IMG/VR virus record: IMGVR_UViG_3300011013_000032
Span: 1 to 39,288 of that record
Direction: 5' to 3' (one strand)
Origin: a virus
Length of the DNA: 39,288 nucleotides
Positions 1,662-39,288 of the stretch are shown piece after piece. Made by a program: the position numbers and the translations under genes. Every line of letters starts with the position of its first letter. The first letter of the stretch is position 1. Under the pieces are notes generated by a model. It ran no database searches, had not been told where the DNA came from, and worked only from the letters and a program-made list of their open reading frames with translations.

Positions 1662-1749
1662 TCACAGGTACTTAGAGAGTTAACCTTAAGATCTCTTAAG
1701 ATTAGCTTTCTAAGTACCATTAACGCAGAGTTCCTGTGATCTATTTTTT
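1662..1749 (+). terminator. Stem-loop with T-run after the 96-aa early gene
   Basis: GGTACTTAGAGAG (1667-1679) pairs with CTTTCTAAGTACC (1706-1718) with one mismatch, and an outer TCACAG/CTGTGA pair (1662-1667, 1734-1739) is an alternative. TTTTTT follows at 1744-1749. The T-run is also the left arm of the dyad starting at 1741, so the two elements overlap. Confidence 0.5.
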
Positions 1750-1837
1750 GCTTGGTAATTACTTTATCCCTTATAGAATATAATATAAAAAATATTTTAT
1801 TATTATATATAGAAAGTAAGTACGTAGCAAAAATAAG
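1741..1837. repeat. AT-rich long dyad, copy 1
   Basis: An inverted repeat of about 27 bp per arm (1741-1767 against 1811-1837, about 21 of 27 positions matching by hand) flanks an almost pure A/T centre. Each arm carries TTTTTGCT followed, about 7 nt on, by TTACTTT. The whole element aligns over about 90 nt with 38,250-38,339. It lies between the gene ending at 1657 and the helicase gene at 1974. A replication origin, a partition-type site or a regulator site are the main possibilities. Confidence 0.65.
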
Positions 1838-1897: not shown

Positions 1898-1975
1898 ATG
1901 GTCGTTTGTTTACTTATCCTCGGGGACGGATGGCTTAAAAACCATGCGAGTAGACGGATAGGAGCAAACGGCCAT
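1898..1975 (+). promoter_or_regulatory. mRNA fold covering the start of the helicase gene
   Basis: ATGGTCGTTTG (1898-1908) can pair with CAAACGGCCAT (1965-1975): 11 pairs with one U-G. TATCC (1914-1918) can pair further in with GGATA (1957-1961), next to the AGGAG at 1960-1964. The fold would bury the AUG at 1974 and part of the ribosome binding site. It suggests translational control of the helicase; this is inferred from complementarity only. Confidence 0.5.
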
Positions 1976-3458
1976 GATTCCCAGTGAAATTTTCAATTCA
2001 ATTAAAGACAAATTAGTTTTAGATGTTACGGCCTCCACAGGTAACGTGCATATTTATTGTGATGGAGAGAAGTATACTTCCAATCAAGTTTTAAAATTTG
2101 GTAATGCCTTGATACCTTATGTGGCCAAAGAGTTACCTGGAAGAGATCTCTCAGGTCTGGCCAAGGACCCAACTAAATATGCGAGCGAAATATTTGCTTT
2201 GGCCAAAGAACAGATGGAAAGCAATCTCTCTTCTGGAGAAGGTTTCTTCACGGACCCAGAGATAGTTAAATTGGCCACTCAGTTTCAGCCTTACATGGAT
2301 TACCAAGACACTTCCAAAACATTAATCTATGATCTTGAGCGAAAGGTGGTAGATGCTCAGTCTTATGACTCCTGGAAGTCCACCGTGAAGGATCACTTAA
2401 TAAATTTACGGAAGGATAAAATAGACGTGAAAGGTCTACGTATGGCCGCAATTTATTTTGATCCTTACTCCAGCACAGAAGTGAAACAAGTTGTTGTTGG
2501 GTCTATGGATATGCCAAGAATAAATTTATATCAAAGGCCGCAGTATTTAGACGTGAAATTAGATTATGATACTTCCACAAAATATGTGGAGATGTTTGAA
2601 AAGTATATGGAACACTTGGTCCCTGATGAGGAGGATCGAGTTTACTGTTATTATTGGATGTATCATTGCATAACTTCCAAGATGCAGTGTTACCTATTTT
2701 TAAAAGGTAAGCAGGGTACAGGTAAAACAGACTTCGCAATGATCTTGAAAGGATTAGTCGGTGAGAATAATTTTACGGCCACTAAGAATAACTTCCTTTC
2801 TACGGAGTTTAATAGCTTCTTAGACAAGAAGCAAGTGGCCTATGCTGATGAGGTTATCTGTAAAAGAGAAGAACACAGAGAGGCTTTTAAAAAGCTTACA
2901 AACGAAACTGTACAAATTGAAGGGAAAGGACAAAATCAAAGGACCGTTAGAAGTTTTTGCAGTTTCTTAATATCAGCAAATCAATATACTAATATTCACA
3001 TCCATCCTGACGATAGACGTTTTAGTATTATCAAATGTACTAGTGCAAAACCTGACGACTCGCTTGGAAAAACCTGGTACTCAGAATTTAGAGATTACTG
3101 GAGAAACGAAGAGTTTCTAAAGGCCGTTAGGGATTTCATTCTTAAACATAACGACGGGAAGTACGACACGTATAATAGACTCCATAATCATGAGTACGAA
3201 ATAGCGGTCGTCGAGTCAGCAAATAAAACTCTTAGAAAAATTTACGATCACTTTGGATTAAGAGAGTCAGAGTCAGAAGAGACAGAAGTTTATTATTCGG
3301 ATATCCGTAAAAAATTAGAGTCCAGTGAAAGACGTTTCTTTTCCACTATTGAAACGGTCAGAGAAAACCTTGAAAGTTTTACATGGTACGGTGAAAAGAT
3401 CTTCAAAGTAGAGTATGACCAGACTATGGAAGATTACTTAATTAGGAAAGTGAAGTGA
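1974..3458 (+). CDS. SF3-type replicative helicase (D5/DUF5906-like)
   Basis: A 494-residue protein whose second half is a superfamily 3 helicase-type AAA+ ATPase: Walker A GKQGTGKT at residues 245-252, Walker B VAYADE near 288-293, and a sensor-like FLISANQ near 330 followed by PDDRRF, the usual arrangement in phage and plasmid D5/DUF5906 primase-helicases. It would unwind DNA for replication as a ring on single strands. I see no clear AEP or TOPRIM primase motif in the N-terminal 200 residues, so a primase activity is uncertain. ATG 1974 follows AGGAG by 9 nt inside a potential stem (1898-1975). Its TGA overlaps the GTG start of the next gene. Confidence 0.85.
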   Translation: MIPSEIFNSIKDKLVLDVTASTGNVHIYCDGEKYTSNQVLKFGNALIPYVAKELPGRDLSGLAKDPTKYASEIFALAKEQMESNLSSGEGFFTDPEIVKLATQFQPYMDYQDTSKTLIYDLERKVVDAQSYDSWKSTVKDHLINLRKDKIDVKGLRMAAIYFDPYSSTEVKQVVVGSMDMPRINLYQRPQYLDVKLDYDTSTKYVEMFEKYMEHLVPDEEDRVYCYYWMYHCITSKMQCYLFLKGKQGTGKTDFAMILKGLVGENNFTATKNNFLSTEFNSFLDKKQVAYADEVICKREEHREAFKKLTNETVQIEGKGQNQRTVRSFCSFLISANQYTNIHIHPDDRRFSIIKCTSAKPDDSLGKTWYSEFRDYWRNEEFLKAVRDFILKHNDGKYDTYNRLHNHEYEIAVVESANKTLRKIYDHFGLRESESEETEVYYSDIRKKLESSERRFFSTIETVRENLESFTWYGEKIFKVEYDQTMEDYLIRKVK

Positions 3459-3763: not shown

Positions 3764-4100
3764 ACTAAAGGTACTCGACTATGCGATCGAGTGTATCAAT
3801 AGATATGACAAGTTTAAGGAAGGTGAGAGAGTTGGTAACTGTGATATGTGCCGACTTATACCTATTAAACATAGTGAGCCGTTTAACATTGGCCTTGTAG
3901 ATTGTAATAGATGTCCGTTCGGTAAAAGTATATTTTTCGACAAGGTCAATCACTGCAATCATAAGGACTATATAGACAACTTTGGGTGCTGGGCTAGGAT
4001 TAACGGCAAAAATATAAAAGCATGGCAAAAGGAACTCATTAAGCGCACTATTTCTTGGTGTGAGCGAGAGTTGCCAGAATATACAATTGAGGTGGTGTGA
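3756..4100 (+). CDS. Hypothetical Cys-rich protein
   Basis: About 114 residues with CDMC, CNRCPFG, a later CNH and a GCW, a set of Cys that could hold a metal or a 4Fe-4S cluster. No catalytic motif is recognised. A TTG at 3744 would add four residues. ATG 3756 has a GGAGGAG directly against it, so the exact start is unsure. The 5' end overlaps the previous gene and the TGA overlaps the next ATG (TGATG). This is where the GGCC-poor segment begins; only one GGCC lies inside it. Confidence 0.65.
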   Translation: MNKLKVLDYAIECINRYDKFKEGERVGNCDMCRLIPIKHSEPFNIGLVDCNRCPFGKSIFFDKVNHCNHKDYIDNFGCWARINGKNIKAWQKELIKRTISWCERELPEYTIEVV

Positions 4101-4723
4101 TGGAAGTAAACACAGAATTTATAAAACAGTTCGATCCTTGTAAGGATGGTTTTGAAAATTGGTTAGATAAATACGAGAACTGGGAAGGAAGTGTTTTAGA
4201 GTTTCTAGAATTAGACTTACCTATAGATGATATATTTTGGCTTGTTCTTAGAGAAGAAATTATCCCAGAGAAAGAGTTACACCTATTAGCCTGTGACTTT
4301 GCCGAGAAGGTTTTACCTATATTTGAAGAACAGTACCCAGATGATAAACGTCCAAGAGAAGTAATTGAAGCTAAAAGGAAGTATATTAAACGTGAGGTAA
4401 CCAAAGAAGAATTGGATGCTGCTAGGGATGCTGCTAGGGATGCTGTTAGGGTTGCTGCTAGGGATGCTGCTAGGGTTGCTGTTAGGGTTGCTGTTAGGGT
4501 TGCTGTTAGGGTTGCTGCTGCTAGGGTTGCTGTTAGGGTTGCTGCTAGGGATGCTGCTGCTAGGGTTGCTGCTAGGGATGCTGCTAGTGTTGCTGTTAGG
4601 GTTGCTGTTAGGGTTGCTAGGGTTGCTGTTAGGGTTGCTGCTAGGGATGCTGCTAGGGATGCTGCTGCTAAACAAGAACAACTAGAAATGGTTAAAGAAT
4701 TAGTTAAGAGGTTAGAGTTATGA
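4100..4723 (+). CDS. Imm5-like putative immunity protein with Ala/Arg repeat tail
   Basis: The first 105 residues match, from memory of the family, the phage-borne putative immunity protein (Imm5) pattern: an N-terminal PCKDG..NWL, a D-I-F-W-L segment, LACDFAEKVLPIFE, then YPDDKRPREVIEAKR. In that family an Ala-rich repeat tail follows; here residues 107-190 are 20 four-residue units (A-A/V-R-D/V). The domain is named for polymorphic-toxin immunity, though its job in phages is unproven. ATG 4100 sits 8 nt after GAGG and overlaps the previous stop (TGATG). Every Ala codon in the tail is GCT and nearly every Arg codon AGG, so the tract expanded recently. The C-terminus returns to a charged helix (KQEQLEMVKELVKRLEL). 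Confidence 0.75.
   Translation: MEVNTEFIKQFDPCKDGFENWLDKYENWEGSVLEFLELDLPIDDIFWLVLREEIIPEKELHLLACDFAEKVLPIFEEQYPDDKRPREVIEAKRKYIKREVTKEELDAARDAARDAVRVAARDAARVAVRVAVRVAVRVAAARVAVRVAARDAAARVAARDAASVAVRVAVRVARVAVRVAARDAARDAAAKQEQLEMVKELVKRLEL
4418..4669 (+). repeat. Tandem 12-bp repeat tract (20 units) inside the immunity-like gene
   Basis: 84 codons made only of GCT, GTT, GAT and AGG (plus one AGT), arranged as 17 four-codon units, two five-codon and one three-codon unit. Consensus GCTGCTAGGGAT or GCTGTTAGGGTT. Because lengths are multiples of three, gain or loss of units keeps the frame. The +2 frame (4416-4685) and one antisense frame (4313-4681) also stay open, as shadows of the repeat. Confidence 0.95.
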
Positions 4724-6487: not shown

Positions 6488-6569
6488 GTCTAAAATTATT
6501 CTTATTATTGGTTGTTTATGTATTGTTATATTGATTTTGAATTTAATAAAGTTACTAATCCTAAATTAA
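6486..6569 (+). other. Possible 27-codon hydrophobic leader frame overlapping the polymerase start
   Basis: ATG 6486 follows AAAAGG at a workable spacing and encodes an almost wholly hydrophobic peptide (MSKIILIIGCLCIVILILNL and seven more residues) ending at TAA 6567-6569, in a different frame from the polymerase. It could modulate polymerase translation, or be a chance frame in AT-rich DNA. Confidence 0.2.
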
Positions 6570-8539
6570 ATCTCGTTTGTGCAGTTTTAACAATCCCAGA
6601 AAAAAACATACGACGTAATCACTGGCTTGATTCAGAAGATTCCAGAGAACTTTTAAAAAGAGATATTCTCCACTTGAGAGAGAAAGGTTACACCTTTGTC
6701 GCTTGGAACGTTATCTCCGAGGCCCGTTCTTTTATCTCACTTGGAATAGATCCCGTTAAGTGTTTATGGATTGATCTCTACTTAGAGTACCGTATGTTAA
6801 CTAATCACTGGGATGAATATATGTATGGCCCTCAACTAATAGACGGTCGTAAAGTCACCACGTCGAGGCCAAAAAGTAAGTATGAACAGACGGAGGAGGA
6901 GCGAAAGAAAACTAACTCCTCAAAGCCAAAACATAATCTCTTGGCCGCTACTTATAAGTTGCTTGGGGTAGTTAAAGATTCAGCTCATAAAAATAAAATG
7001 AGAGATCTGATTATATCTAATCCACCTATGTTTTCAGAGGATGAGAAAACCTCCATTTTAGATTACTGTTATGAGGACGTCGAGTTACTACCCGATCTCC
7101 ATAAAGCCATCGACAAAGCTTACATAAGGTCCGGTCTCAATAAGGTCTACATTAAAAACGAATTAGAAGATGACCAGCATGAAAGAGCGGAGTATGCTGC
7201 CAGGTCCGCTATTATGGAAACGAAAGGTTATCCAATAGACACGAAGGCCACTCAGAGGTTTATAGATAACGTGCCAAATATTCTTAAATCTTTGGCCGAA
7301 GATATTAACTCTCAAAACGTCCCTATTAAACCTTTCAAGTGGAATAAGAAGGACCAAAAATATTCAATGAAACAAAAGGTCCTCCAGGATGATTGGATCG
7401 CTCATTTACCACAGGCCAAAAGGTGGATGAAAACAGATACAGGAAAGTACTCTCTATCTCTAGAGGCCATTTCTCGTTTTTTTAATTTCACACACGATTA
7501 TCCTAGAGATAACTTAGGCGCTCAATTAGTTAGATATTTTAAAACAAGGCAATCTTTAAACGGATTTCTTCCAAAACCTAAGAAGAGTAAAAAGAAAAGT
7601 TTTCATGATTACGTTGGAGAGGACGGGAGAGTCCGGTCTTATATGGGTATCTTTGGAAGTCAAAGCTCAAGATCACAGCCGGCGGCCACTGGTTTTATTC
7701 CTTTAAAGGCCGCTTGGATGAGACGGTTTATTCTAGCTCCTCCAGGTAAAGCTATCTGCGGGATTGATTACGGATCACAGGAGTTTTTAATTTCTGCTTT
7801 AGTTTCTAAAGATGAAAATATGGTCGAGGCCTATAGGTCAGGAGATGTCTATCTCCACTTCGCAAAGTTGGCCGGTGCAGTTCCATTGGAAGGTACTAAG
7901 AAAGAGTATGCTAAAGAGAGAGATCTTTTTAAATCTACTACTCTCGGTATCTCCTACAATATGGGAGCTGAGTCTTTAGCAGTGAAACTGACAAATGATA
8001 CAGGTATCCCACAGACAGAAGCAGATGCTCAAAAACTGATACAAAAATTTCAAAAGGCCTACCCTAAGTTCAAAGATTGGAATCAAGATAATCTCTTGGA
8101 GTATATAAAAAACAATTACATGGCACTCCCAGATAAATGGATATTATGGGGAGATCAAGATAATTGGAGAAGTTGCAACAACTTTCCTATTCAGGGGAGA
8201 GGAGCAACGATAATGCGAAAGGCGGTTGCGTATGCACAGGACGAAGGATTGGATGTTATTTACACTTTACACGATGCTCTTTATATCGAGTATGATTCAG
8301 ATGACCTTAGGGCCGTGGATACTTTGGCACGGTCTATGCGAAGAGCCTTTGTGGATACTTTTGACGGTGACCCTGACGCTGACCTCATTCGTTTGGACGC
8401 CAATATCTGGGGTCGCAACTATACAGATGGGAAGGTCATTACTCCAGAAGGTATGGAAGTAAAACAACAAAAATATTATATAGACGGTAGAGCTATAAAT
8501 GATTACGAAAGATTTAAAAAATACTTCGAGGAGGAGTAA
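6518..8539 (+). CDS. Family A DNA polymerase with 3'-5' exonuclease domain
   Basis: About 673 residues. The N-terminus has exonuclease motif I (YIDFEF, Asp and Glu at about residues 6-8), a motif II-like AWNVISE near 67-75 and YCYEDVELL near 185. The palm has motif A GIDYGSQEF near 415, motif B (RDLFKSTTLGISYNMG) near 470 and motif C TLHDALYIEY near 583, where the usual HDE is HDA. It is the phage replicative polymerase. The start is uncertain: ATG 6518 lacks a good ribosome binding site (TTG 6512 is an alternative), and the best AAAAGG upstream is placed for an overlapping 27-codon frame at 6486. The stop overlaps the next ATG. Confidence 0.92.
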   Translation: MYCYIDFEFNKVTNPKLNLVCAVLTIPEKNIRRNHWLDSEDSRELLKRDILHLREKGYTFVAWNVISEARSFISLGIDPVKCLWIDLYLEYRMLTNHWDEYMYGPQLIDGRKVTTSRPKSKYEQTEEERKKTNSSKPKHNLLAATYKLLGVVKDSAHKNKMRDLIISNPPMFSEDEKTSILDYCYEDVELLPDLHKAIDKAYIRSGLNKVYIKNELEDDQHERAEYAARSAIMETKGYPIDTKATQRFIDNVPNILKSLAEDINSQNVPIKPFKWNKKDQKYSMKQKVLQDDWIAHLPQAKRWMKTDTGKYSLSLEAISRFFNFTHDYPRDNLGAQLVRYFKTRQSLNGFLPKPKKSKKKSFHDYVGEDGRVRSYMGIFGSQSSRSQPAATGFIPLKAAWMRRFILAPPGKAICGIDYGSQEFLISALVSKDENMVEAYRSGDVYLHFAKLAGAVPLEGTKKEYAKERDLFKSTTLGISYNMGAESLAVKLTNDTGIPQTEADAQKLIQKFQKAYPKFKDWNQDNLLEYIKNNYMALPDKWILWGDQDNWRSCNNFPIQGRGATIMRKAVAYAQDEGLDVIYTLHDALYIEYDSDDLRAVDTLARSMRRAFVDTFDGDPDADLIRLDANIWGRNYTDGKVITPEGMEVKQQKYYIDGRAINDYERFKKYFEEE

Positions 8540-17036: not shown

Positions 17037-19043
17037 TTATATGTCTAAGAGGTCAGTAGCCTCTACAGTTGTTTCATTAACTTTCTTATTCATACTAATT
17101 ATTTTAAGTGGTCTACTAGTAACTTGACCAGGTAATCCTGATTTTTCTAATAAAATGTCGTCCCCGATCTCTGAGTCATAGTTTACACTCTTAGTCGCAA
17201 AAGAATATTTAGCAAATCTTTCAGATCTAATGGCCATAAGGTCAGTAGCTCTAGTTGAGTAATCTTCTAGGTAATGTCTAAACCTGGAGGTCTTATTTAT
17301 ACCGTGTAAATATTTGGCCTTAGGAGAGTCTACAGTAACTGACGCAACGTTGCTAAATTCTGATGAGCTGTAATGACTATTAAAAGTTATTAACTCAGAT
17401 ACAATGTCTTTATATTCAAATCCCACTTGATAGGTATCCTTTAAAATATCAATATCCGTCACACTATCTGCAGAGGTCGGAGTTTTAAATAGCTTATAGG
17501 CTATAGTAAAGTCGTTTTTTAATAGTATATAGCCTATAGTTGACTGTAATAATTCTTCTACATACTTAGTGTAATCATTAAAATCCACTTCATCAAAGTA
17601 AGGAATAGAAAAATTGGCCTTAACGTCTAAGGAAGTTTGGGCCGCAGTAAAACTAGCCGCATCTAAAGTAAATCCTGCTTTAGTTAAGATCTCCGTCAAA
17701 ACATTAGCTTGATCTTGAGAGTCAAAGTTAGGTTTTAACCTATAACCTACAGTCATAAGACTAGGGTCTAGTGCAGTAAGTCCAGCATGGTTTGCTTCAA
17801 AATTAGAAACAAAGTTCACTTTGATTAGTTTGTTCCCACTAGGGAGTGCCACTTCCGAGGCTGTATAGTCTCTCCCATACAGACAATAATATGTGGTCGA
17901 GAGATCTTGAATCGTGATGACTGGACACACATTAGAATTAACAGTGTCAGTAAGTACGAGAGAGCCTTCCTTCGTAATATAGACATAGTTATTAGTCCTA
18001 TCGACATACAATATTCTCACATAATAAGTACCACTTCCTGTAACGACAAAAGTATCTCCTATGTGGAGCTTAGCTATTGAAGCGGCCGAAGTGGTTAATC
18101 TAGTAAAATTTGGGTCAGTATTGTCTACGGCCGTCATGGTGAATGAGAAGTCTGTAGATCCTGATACTCGGCCGGCGTGATACTCTCTATTATTTGCCGT
18201 GGTTATATCGTTATTGTAATCAGTACAGATGGCTTGGCTTAAGGTACTAGCATCTATACGGCTAGCGTCTCCTAAATTAGTAACTGATTCAGATAATAAT
18301 TTATACCTGGTAACCGTTCCAAAGTGATAGAGGATTGGAAAGTTAACTCTTAAAGGATCTACTTTAGTAAAGTTCCCATTTGTATAATAGACGATATCGT
18401 CTCCCATCAAAGCTGGGTAGGTCAGCCTATCTAAGGTGTCTTTAACTCTTAAAACTAATTGTTTCTTATCTATACTTAGTCCGCTGATAACACCTTTAAA
18501 TACTTTTTGAATATTAGAAACTTCGTCCAGGACTTGCCAGACTTCTATCTCTTTATTGTAAAAGGAGTCGTTATCTGTGAGATACTGTTCCCAGTATTGG
18601 CCATTATTAATCAAAGTGATAGAGGAGTTACTGATAGAAAAAACTCCGTTTAAAATATCTTTAACGTTTTGTTTAACGCTTAATAAGTTCTTTAACCTCG
18701 GCTCCCAGTCTCTTAAATCAGTACCTGGAGTCTCAGGGTCTTTACCTATAGTTTTTACATCACTTGAAGTTATGTAAATGGCGTAAGTAACCACCACAAT
18801 ATTGGAGCTAGAAGGTGCAGCTGTTAAAGTTACGTCTAGTTGTTGGGTCGTTTCTGTGTGGGTGTAACTAACACTCGACCCGTTTTCTACAACGTCTACT
18901 ACGTCGTAAGGAAAAGTCATCGTGTAATCTAAACCACTGACCAGGCTCAAGTCACCATTAACCATACGAGCTGGATTAAGTTTAACTAGATGGAACTTTC
19001 TAGAAGCTTGGTTTTCTTTAATGTTAACAAAGTTATTTGCCAT
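17037..19043 (-). CDS. Tail tip/baseplate structural protein (668 aa)
   Basis: 668 residues, beta-rich, with no enzymatic motif. It starts with a short beta domain with TFPYDVVDVVEN, followed by a hub-like region (LVLRVKDTLDRLTYP) and a late segment (EIGDDILLEKSGLPG) that look like phage tail-hub proteins which thread and anchor the fibre. It lies between the fibre and the distal tail proteins, consistent with a tail tip or adhesin-bearing hub. Confidence 0.65.
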   Translation of the reverse strand: MANNFVNIKENQASRKFHLVKLNPARMVNGDLSLVSGLDYTMTFPYDVVDVVENGSSVSYTHTETTQQLDVTLTAAPSSSNIVVVTYAIYITSSDVKTIGKDPETPGTDLRDWEPRLKNLLSVKQNVKDILNGVFSISNSSITLINNGQYWEQYLTDNDSFYNKEIEVWQVLDEVSNIQKVFKGVISGLSIDKKQLVLRVKDTLDRLTYPALMGDDIVYYTNGNFTKVDPLRVNFPILYHFGTVTRYKLLSESVTNLGDASRIDASTLSQAICTDYNNDITTANNREYHAGRVSGSTDFSFTMTAVDNTDPNFTRLTTSAASIAKLHIGDTFVVTGSGTYYVRILYVDRTNNYVYITKEGSLVLTDTVNSNVCPVITIQDLSTTYYCLYGRDYTASEVALPSGNKLIKVNFVSNFEANHAGLTALDPSLMTVGYRLKPNFDSQDQANVLTEILTKAGFTLDAASFTAAQTSLDVKANFSIPYFDEVDFNDYTKYVEELLQSTIGYILLKNDFTIAYKLFKTPTSADSVTDIDILKDTYQVGFEYKDIVSELITFNSHYSSSEFSNVASVTVDSPKAKYLHGINKTSRFRHYLEDYSTRATDLMAIRSERFAKYSFATKSVNYDSEIGDDILLEKSGLPGQVTSRPLKIISMNKKVNETTVEATDLLDI

Positions 19044-37555: not shown

Positions 37556-37688
37556 TAGCTGGAGCTTCTTTTGCTTCTTCTTTTAATGCTCTCTGTTCTT
37601 CCTTAGTCAGTTTGGCCAGGTAGATTTCTCTTTGGTCCTTAGGGAGTGCATTTAAATGTTCTTTTAAATCTTTAATCTTCACTTTCAT
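37548..37688 (-). CDS. Small coupled gene between the terminase subunits (46 aa)
   Basis: ATG 37,688 overlaps the end of the small terminase by 17 bp and the stop overlaps the large terminase start by 8 bp. The 46-residue product (MKVKIKDLKEHLNALPKDQR onwards) is a charged helix. It is preceded by GGAG. Function unknown; the tight overlap suggests a coupling role or a packaging accessory. Confidence 0.55.
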   Translation of the reverse strand: MKVKIKDLKEHLNALPKDQREIYLAKLTKEEQRALKEEAKEAPASE

Positions 37689-38124
37689 GATCTTCTCCGT
37701 CCATTTGGATAATTAGTTTTTTAGGCTTATCGTTATCTTGCTCCGCGGCCTTGTCATTCATACCAAGATTACACTTAGCAAAAAAGATGCTCCAGGTAGT
37801 ATTATAATTGCCGTTAAGCCCTTGCCAGGTGATAAAATCCTTCTGGAAATCCTTGCACCACTTATATGCTTCGTTAAAGTCAGGGAACCGTTTTTTCCAT
37901 TGATGCAGAGTATCGGTGTTAACTCCTAACTTAATAGCAAACCGCTCGAAAGTCGGAAGCTTTGGACCCCGTGTCTTAAAAGTAGCCACTTCATCTTCTC
38001 CGTTGACTACTCTCTGTGCTAGATATTCCTCTTCCTTCTCCAGGTGAGCGTAAAAGAAATCAATCATCTCCTGGGGTACGCCTTCGTTGTATTTCGACGG
38101 TCGACCCATCTTCTTTTTGGCCAT
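37672..38124 (-). CDS. Terminase small subunit
   Basis: 150 residues from ATG 38,124 (AGAGGA upstream; GTG 38,142 is an alternative). N-terminus KKKMGRPSKYNEG, then FERFAIKLGVNTDTLHQWKK, a helix-turn-helix, then a helical body (FITWQGLNGNYNTTWSIFF) as in DNA-packaging small subunits. It recognises the packaging start and feeds the large subunit. First gene of the late unit. Confidence 0.88.
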   Translation of the reverse strand: MAKKKMGRPSKYNEGVPQEMIDFFYAHLEKEEEYLAQRVVNGEDEVATFKTRGPKLPTFERFAIKLGVNTDTLHQWKKRFPDFNEAYKWCKDFQKDFITWQGLNGNYNTTWSIFFAKCNLGMNDKAAEQDNDKPKKLIIQMDGEDHESED

Positions 38125-38192
38125 ATTATCCTCTTTTTTCACTTTATAAAATCATACTATTCCGAAAACTAATTAATTACAACAACTTCCGC

Positions 38193-38221
38193 ATTTTACT
38201 GATAGACGCTGTCTATCACAA
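38193..38221 (-). promoter_or_regulatory. Candidate late promoter
   Basis: Reading leftward: TTGTGA (38,221-38,216) - 17 bp - TAAAAT (38,198-38,193), leading to the small terminase start at 38,124. The -10 has five of six and the -35 four of six consensus bases. Its spacer is filled by the 19-bp palindrome at 38,200-38,218. Confidence 0.65.
38200..38218. promoter_or_regulatory. 19-bp palindromic operator
   Basis: TGATAGACGCTGTCTATCA is an exact palindrome of 8 bp per arm around GCT. It covers the spacer and part of the -35 of the candidate late promoter, so a bound regulator would block or reshape transcription. Confidence 0.7.
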
Positions 38222-38241
38222 CGCACTGTCAATGAATTGAG

Positions 38242-38347
38242 GGTAGCAGTTTTTTGCTATGACAATACTTTATATGTATAGAAATAAAATAAAAAAAATA
38301 TTATATTATAGAGAGAATAAAGTAATGTTGTAGCAAAATCTGCTACC
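38242..38347. repeat. Long AT-rich dyad, copy 2
   Basis: Left arm 38,242-38,273 (GGTAGCAG..TTTTGCTA..TACTTTAT) pairs with right arm 38,317-38,347 (ATAAAGTA..TAGCAAAA..CTGCTACC), about 27 of 32 positions. The centre is an A/T tract with TATTATATTATA. Element 1 at 1,741-1,837 has the same design. It lies between the late and early promoters. Confidence 0.75.
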
Positions 38348-38466
38348 GTCAAAACGGGGACAATGCGTCAAGTGCCCGATATCTCATTAACGTGCCACAT
38401 TAAATTGGCAATCTGCCTATTTTCCCTGGAATCTGAGCACCTACTACCCTGTAATATTCTCTAGAG

Positions 38467-38527
38467 TTTGACTCTATAAGTCATCTATTTTACTCTGAAA
38501 CAGTATTATCTGACTGATAGAGTCAAA
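38467..38527. repeat. 17-bp inverted repeat upstream of the early promoter
   Basis: 38,467-38,483 and 38,511-38,527 are inverted copies matching at 16 of 17 positions (TTTGACTCTAT.AGTCA), 27 bp apart. The right arm ends 7 bp before the -35. No T-run follows. A two-site operator is likely. Confidence 0.7.
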
Positions 38528-38534
38528 ATAATTA

Positions 38535-38571
38535 TTTACTGAAATAATGCACTCGGTTATAATTTAATTAC
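38535..38571 (+). promoter_or_regulatory. Early promoter, copy 2
   Basis: TTTACT (38,535-38,540) - 17 bp - TATAAT (38,558-38,563), followed by sequence identical to the 1,319-1,337 copy. Points at the gene starting 38,602. Confidence 0.75.
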
Positions 38572-38601: not shown

Positions 38602-39018
38602 ATGAAATTTTTTAAAACTTTAAATCTTTATAAAAACTCTGTTAGCTCAAACATCATTGACCTAAATAATCTAAAAGCTACCTCTTACGATTGGTGGCAG
38701 TATTTAGCAGTAATAAAAGGAAAAATAGTTTTCAATGACTACAATTACTCAAGTGCTACTAATAAACATCAAGCAGAATGTAGATCTTTATTAAGTAAAA
38801 ACGGTATCCAAGTAGATTTATTTATTAAGACAGAGCACTCATTGACAGATGAGAGGGCCGTACAAAATGCTATTGATTTATTAAATAGAGAAATAAGAGT
38901 TTTAAAAGCTGAAATAAATAAACCACGATCTCAAAAAAAGAAAAATCTAGAGAGAATATTTACAATTGAAAAATTGGAAACAGAGATAACAATTTTAACA
39001 AATGAACTAGTGGCCTAA
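38602..39018 (+). CDS. Hypothetical first early protein (138 aa)
   Basis: 138 residues. AGGAG with CAACAA spacing precedes ATG 38,602, as at 1,367. N-terminus SYDWWQYLAVIKGKIVFNDY, a probable small beta/helix domain, and a coiled-coil C-terminus (RIFTIEKLETEITILTNEL). No motif recognised. As the gene nearest the early promoter it is likely among the first proteins made after infection. Confidence 0.7.
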   Translation: MKFFKTLNLYKNSVSSNIIDLNNLKATSYDWWQYLAVIKGKIVFNDYNYSSATNKHQAECRSLLSKNGIQVDLFIKTEHSLTDERAVQNAIDLLNREIRVLKAEINKPRSQKKKNLERIFTIEKLETEITILTNELVA

Positions 39019-39282: not shown

Positions 39283-39288
39283 ATGAGA
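39283..39288 (+). CDS. Start of a further early gene, cut by the window edge
   Basis: ATG AGA follows the standard ACTAGGAGCAAAAA leader, so a gene begins here and runs off the window. Joining to position 1 would give a stop after four codons (ATG AGA AAT GAA TAG), so the edges probably do not abut directly. Confidence 0.6.

Follow-up and report, generated by a model that had tools for sequence, protein, structure and literature searches.

Two matching AT-rich dyads in the genome of an uncultured phage: candidate paired replication origins

Results

Organization of the genome and location of the two dyads

The window analyzed in this work is the whole IMG/VR record IMGVR_UViG_3300011013_000032, 39,288 bases long, which belongs to an uncultured phage. 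Its genes are arranged in two blocks of opposite direction. An early-type block begins at 38.6 k, crosses the joined ends and continues rightward to 12.0 k, and its products include a superfamily-3 (SF3)-type helicase, a family A DNA polymerase, a PDDEXK nuclease, a SNF2-type helicase and RusA; the late block runs leftward from 38.1 k to 12.0 k and includes the terminase, the portal region, the capsid and the tail. The ends of the record (39283-39288 and 1-10) fuse in frame with a one-base overlap, ATGAGA + ATGAATAGG, and the usual ribosome site AGGAGCAAAAA precedes the reading frame that spans them; for this reason a circular or circularly permuted genome is probable, in spite of its IMG/VR class, 'linear'. 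The cumulative GC skew has its minimum at 38,688, a value that is confounded with gene orientation; given that the genes change orientation at almost the same positions, the skew was dropped as evidence for an origin.

Two non-coding elements, sites A and B, together with the features that surround them, are listed below.

1746..1832, no strand: site A, an 87-nt dyad with 22-nt inverted arms and a 43-nt A/T centre
38252..38338, no strand: site B, an 87-nt dyad with the same geometry as site A
1770..1812, no strand: centre of A, the least stable 43-bp window in the record (rank 1; z 4.4), presumed unwinding element
38269..38311, no strand: centre of B, the second least stable 43-bp window in the record (rank 2)
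38221..38368, no strand: outer arms of B, ACGCA-N-TGTC ... TTGA-N-GGTAGCAG and complement
1974..3458, plus strand: gene of the SF3-type helicase, DUF5906/VapE-like, candidate initiator
37672..38142, minus strand: terminase small subunit gene, adjacent to B and opening the leftward late operon
38535..38563, plus strand: predicted early promoter TTTACT-17-TATAAT, outside site B, a consensus match only
38193..38221, minus strand: weak predicted late promoter TTGTGA-17-TAAAAT, a consensus match only (9/12)

The first-pass annotation placed both elements at the borders of the early gene cluster. This is correct for B, which occupies the divergent gap between the terminase and the early genes, about 110 bp before the start of the terminase small subunit gene; in contrast, A is found within the rightward early block, where 142 bp separate it from the helicase gene downstream. 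Neither site falls in a listed ORF of at least 50 aa. The distance between them is 2.8 kb if the record closes on itself, a condition that agrees with the in-frame joining of the ends and disagrees with the 'linear' label.

Geometry of the sites and the common half-site

Both elements were found where they had been described, and their alignment, initially given as about 90 nt of inverted arms around an A/T centre, could be tightened to 87 nt with an identical layout of a 22-nt arm, a 43-nt centre and a 22-nt arm. The arms (1746-1767 and 1811-1832 in A; 38252-38273 and 38317-38338 in B) form two convergent pairs. Without gaps, A is identical to B at 59/87 positions and to the reverse complement of B at 62/87. 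All four arms share the half-site TTTTGCTW-N6-TACTTTWT-N9-AATAWAATA, whose third block, overlooked in the first-pass annotation, occupies positions 32-40 of the arm and is present in 4/4; this half-site occurs four times in the record and nowhere else in it.

1746..1785, plus strand: half-site A+, TTTTGCTT-N6-TACTTTAT-N9-AATATAATA; PWM score 46.7
1793..1832, minus strand: half-site A-, TTTTGCTA-N6-TACTTTCT-N9-AATAAAATA; PWM score 47.6
38252..38291, plus strand: half-site B+, TTTTGCTA-N6-TACTTTAT-N9-AATAAAATA; PWM score 45.9
38299..38338, minus strand: half-site B-, TTTTGCTA-N6-TACTTTAT-N9-AATATAATA; PWM score 46.5

A scan of the record with TTTTGCTA-N6-TACTTTAT returned four matches with 0-1 mismatch, and the next best carried 3 mismatches. 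With a weight matrix for the 40-nt half-site the four copies scored 45.9-47.6, and no other position of the genome exceeded 7.4; because the matrix was trained on these same four copies, what counts is solely the distance to the next score.

When the record was scanned for paired 22-nt dyads with four matching arms, the score was 16/22, whereas the maximum in 300 Markov genomes was 12/22 and 0/300 gave such a twin. The same scan found no twin dyads in eight comparison phages (P4, NrS-1, Scuro, KLEP18-1, MSW-3, HMSP1, Rostov 6 and the contig of L009). Site B is also the strongest dyad of the genome, with a local self-complement score of 52 against maxima of 22-32 in the Markov genomes. As a dyad alone, site A (score 34) is within the range of local shuffles (mean 18, max 38) and is not exceptional, so that its weight comes from matching B. 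These analyses confirmed that the twin sites A and B are real.

The stability of the centres was determined by ranking all the 43-bp windows of the record by nearest-neighbour duplex stability. The ranks given above place at both A and B what is generally looked for in an origin, i.e. repeated initiator-type motifs beside the least stable DNA of the replicon.

Sequence recognition versus pairing of the arms

Conservation of the arms could reflect either a protein that reads their sequence or the pairing of one arm with the other. The similarity between the arms of a site is 29/44 in A and 27/44 in B, and the similarity of arms across sites is 29-31/44, not below the within-site values. Since cross-site similarity equals or exceeds complementarity within a site, the conservation of the arms seems best explained by sequence recognition of four half-sites and not by formation of a hairpin. 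The N9 spacer, situated between conserved blocks, is hardly complementary (2 and 0 of 9). Two positions of the N6 spacer differ between A and B and change on both arms together, but these are too few to argue for pairing.

The outer arms turn site B into a 148-nt imperfect dyad, and site A does not have them. Compared with shuffled sequences, the fold of B reached z values of -10 and -12 on the two strands, and that of A a z of -4. A structural role special to B is possible, given that its outer arms produce a very stable 148-nt fold. The elements had no Rfam match at the gathering threshold. Just before site A there is a second strong dyad (1667-1718; 25-nt arms, 88%, fold of -35.6 kcal/mol), which is overlapped by one sub-threshold Rfam hit only.

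The helicase gene and the region around site A

The 494-aa helicase encoded next to site A carries a Walker A motif, and its profile matches were DUF5906 (E 3.9e-17) and the helicase part of the NrS-1 primase (PDB 6k9c, E 3.6e-13). In an alignment with six relatives the helicase core is present and the primase domain that its phage relatives have is absent; no primase was recognized among the proteins scanned. No match was obtained for the N-terminal 200 residues, a winged helix was not recognized at the C-terminus, and structure prediction from the single sequence gave no usable fold (pLDDT 34.6). A predicted leader hairpin (1897-1976; -41 kcal/mol, z -4.6) pairs the ribosome site and the start codon of the helicase gene, and it is possible that it would act in the translational control of this gene.

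Around site A, promoter-like matches appear on both strands, including the leftward TTGCTA-17-TATAAT; their number was 3, versus 3.0 expected by chance. The idea that the arms themselves are promoters was rejected, given that most of the -10-like part is within the N9 spacer, which is not conserved.

Further upstream, a stretch of about 500 nt (855-1366) has no convincing gene and a fold z-score of -3.6. It holds a 23-nt perfect direct repeat (1074-1096 and 1100-1122) and the 19-nt repeat AACCTCTGGGCGAAACCCA (starting at 1121 and 1217), and it showed no match to Rfam at the gathering threshold; this region is a candidate for a structured RNA or for a competing iteron region.

Predicted promoters and palindromes around site B

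The predicted early promoter at 38535..38563 is the strongest one near B, with about 200 bp between it and the core of the site. The late promoter is also outside the 87-nt core, and its first base touches the outer arm. Perfect operator-like palindromes stand on opposite sides of B: one, TGATAGAC-GCT-GTCTATCA, at 38200-38218 near the predicted late promoter, and two of the form TGACT-N5-AGTCA at 38469-38483 and 38511-38525, 42 bp apart, near the predicted early promoter. In addition, a promoter-like stretch, CGGTTATAATTTAATTAC, is identical at 1320-1337 and 38554-38571, ahead of two early genes, and probably represents a shared early promoter type.

Search for relatives and for the half-site in other genomes

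Queries with the helicase, the polymerase and the SNF2 helicase found no relative among viral contigs, and the terminase query found none among genome contigs. With terminase, portal and capsid as queries, the viral relatives obtained were mostly 43-64% identical and lacked the motif; the nearest ones (approximately 54% identical for terminase, 50% for portal and 64% for capsid) did not carry the half-site either. The motif pattern was sought in 2.9 million viral contigs and a genome collection, and the matches, judged one by one, were only chance matches, mostly in coding sequence; the collections used for these searches may omit near records. A blastn search with site B gave low-scoring partial matches, with a best E value among the matches listed of 0.1 for phages and 0.5 for plasmids. 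The Silvanigrella phage CP017838 was considered as a relative with twin sites and discarded; only its polymerase is related, and its apparent twin dyads come from a segment that is repeated.

Comparison with known replication systems

In the P4 record, crr consists of two 120-bp copies that end 46 nt from the alpha gene; in these copies inverted type-1 repeats flank 35-nt T-rich centres (29-31% GC versus 50% in the genome), and ori, located about 4.5 kb from crr, has the same type-1 repeats. The phage studied here resembles P4 in having two cis regions a few kb apart with a common motif, one of them beside an SF3 helicase gene, and in the inverted motif copies that surround an A/T-rich centre (about 35 nt in P4 and 43 nt here). 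In contrast, P4 uses several 8-mer repeats per site whereas here there is one inverted pair, and the alpha protein comprises primase, SF3 helicase and a winged-helix origin-binding domain, whereas here only the helicase core was recognized. The motifs are unrelated as well: the P4 type-1 repeat GGTGAACAG is not enriched in the record, with 8 one-mismatch matches versus 6.0 expected, none of them in A or B.

Nitratiruptor phage NrS-1, which has a related helicase, carries about ten copies of GGTTACACTTT in opposing arrays separated by a 45-nt gap, comparable to the 43 nt found here; 14 copies within one mismatch are present genome-wide versus 0.5 expected. This array (17061-17271, with iterons to 17378) starts 10 nt after the primase-helicase gene and is the strongest dyad of that genome, as B is of ours; from its sequence it is a candidate origin, absent from the NrS-1 annotation. 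NrS-1 differs in that its ten or so iterons are at one place and a second site was not seen, and GGTTACACTTT is not enriched in the record analyzed here. Symmetric sites beside AT-rich DNA are also used by the SF3 initiators of SV40 and the papillomaviruses.

In plasmid pRN1 the putative origin is a stem-loop with a 21-nt stem and a 58-nt loop, about 100 bp in all, that is required beside the primase-SF3 gene; the integrity of the stem is needed, and origins of this type have also been proposed for some phages (PMC4234260). In its size and its SF3 neighbour site A would fit this type, although the neighbour has no primase domain and is downstream of the site; in P4, NrS-1 and pRN1 the site follows the gene. 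Moreover, pRN1 has a single copy in which structure is conserved and sequence is not, whereas in our two sites the arms share sequence and pairing adds little.

In phage SPP1 one protein binds two AT-rich origins (PMC6316719). Its oriL and oriR resemble A and B in that a single phage genome has a pair of sites that share their motifs and contain an AT-rich unwinding element; nonetheless, the SPP1 sites are about 13 kb apart, their repeats are direct and bound by a gp38-like protein, and the helicase is of the DnaB type with a loader, whereas here the repeats are inverted and the helicase is of the SF3 type. For each of the P4, pRN1 and SPP1 systems a defining feature was thus looked for and not found here; therefore, these sites were not assigned to any of the three types, and they may still work alike.

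Among the other SF3 phages, Scuro, KLEP18-1, MSW-3 and Rostov 6 lack a strong dyad next to the SF3 gene; HMSP1 has one, which resembles a terminator. In Scuro and Rostov 6 the strongest dyad is located in or close to the gap that separates gene blocks of opposite orientation, which is taken as suggestive only; MSW-3 and KLEP18-1 have no comparable feature. An N15-type telomere was set aside on general knowledge, given that no protelomerase was seen and that the centre falls short of a perfect palindrome.

Discussion

The replication origins of most phages are not known. Among the roles that had been put forward for the twin dyads (paired origins, a looping regulator site or a partition site), paired origins fit best on account of the least stable centres, the SF3 helicase neighbour and the parallels with P4 and NrS-1. 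We consider, with a confidence close to even, that A and B are paired cis-acting replication origins of one phage replicon, each comprising initiator sites and an unwinding centre, and that a single phage protein serves both. The likelihood of this reading roughly equals that of all its rivals combined, the main one being a looping regulator. If it holds, the sites would be a known kind of switch in a new arrangement.

We infer the identity of the binding protein, the melting, the start of replication and the cooperation of A with B. The phage initiator, in the simplest case the helicase 1974-3458 or else an early partner protein, would bind the half-site; two molecules or rings would then assemble mirror-wise, one per arm, flanking the 43-bp centre. 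Melting of this A/T centre would let two forks depart in opposite directions, and forks from the A/B region would travel co-directionally with transcription of both gene blocks. The other site, 2.8 kb away on the circle, could be a second origin or a helper that is looped in, analogous to crr aiding ori in P4. Arguing against paired origins are the order of site and gene at A, opposite to that in P4, NrS-1 and pRN1, the four SF3 phages without a strong dyad beside the SF3 gene, together with the terminator-like one of HMSP1, the direct repeat at 1074-1122 as a rival iteron candidate, and a helicase with no primase domain, no recognized winged helix and an unmatched N-terminal region.

The strongest alternative, which we regard as unlikely overall, is that the sites are operators: a dimeric or tetrameric phage regulator would loop A to B and control the early, helicase and late units, and the A/T centre would serve for bending or promoter opening. 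The position of B between the late and early units and of A upstream of the helicase gene would suit such a regulator, the identical geometry of the sites would suit a bridging protein, and a TTGCT-like hexamer is present in every arm, with promoter-like matches on both strands at A. These matches, however, are at chance level and have most of their -10-like part in the non-conserved spacer, the best early promoter is distant from the core of B, and conventional operator-like palindromes are already present near the promoters; in addition, three conserved blocks per arm across 87 bp are large for an operator.

A doubtful elaboration of the paired-origin reading would divide the labour between the sites. 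In it, A, adjacent to the helicase gene, would start early theta replication, and B, which has the larger 148-nt dyad and adjoins the terminase gene, would stall forks or restart them and so link the transition to concatemers with packaging; SF3 helicase rings would be loaded in mirror orientation at both symmetric origins.

It is rather improbable that the sites act as folded single strands, whether as cruciforms or DNA hairpins (a pRN1-type origin or a single-strand initiation site) or as RNA hairpins. The stability of B far above shuffles on both strands, the weaker excess of A and the two N6 positions that change together are consistent with folding, and the stem integrity required in pRN1 provides a precedent (PMC4234260). 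Nevertheless, whole-arm complementarity within a site is not above the similarity across sites, A is missing the outer stem of B, the Rfam search gave no match at the gathering threshold, and no promoter is shown to transcribe B.

Packaging (pac), partition or resolution sites are highly unlikely. The proximity of B to the terminase small subunit gene would agree with the first of these, and two direct-oriented copies would be open to recombination or bridging; in contrast, a packaging role leaves site A unexplained, and neither a recombinase nor ParA/ParB was recognized in the proteins scanned. The proposal of a partition site in particular is weak because no ParA/ParB-like gene was recognized among the early proteins scanned. 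To our knowledge, pac and par sites do not have an unstable centre of 43 bp enclosed by inverted motifs. Least credible of all is a MITE-like relic of a duplicated non-coding insertion without phage function, for although the two AT-rich copies are short, non-coding and bounded by terminal inverted repeats, in each of the four arms only three blocks are conserved and the remainder has diverged, the flanks have no obvious target-site duplication, and the pattern has no relevant match in the 2.9 million viral contigs or the genome collection.

On the paired-origin reading, a half-site in four fixed copies beside a replication helicase is a concrete target that can be tested cheaply. The parallels with NrS-1 and P4 also suggest a rule for searching other SF3-helicase phages: one would look next to the helicase gene, or in the gap between early and late genes, for weak DNA enclosed by a pair of inverted motifs with a spacing of about 35-45 nt.

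Some additional features were observed. In Vibrio phage Rostov 6, opposing arrays of GGTGGACAC (39508-39636) constitute the strongest dyad of that genome, and on the circular map they are upstream of the terminase region. In the phage studied here, the early protein encoded at 4097-4723 resembles the Imm5-type immunity proteins (Pfam Imm5_like, E 1.7e-9; Imm5, E 1.4e-7), an unusual company for replication genes. Finally, the closest relative by coverage of the polymerase gene product (6512-8539) is in a phage of Silvanigrella aquatica (Bdellovibrionota), with 33% identity, which may be taken as a weak hint about the host.
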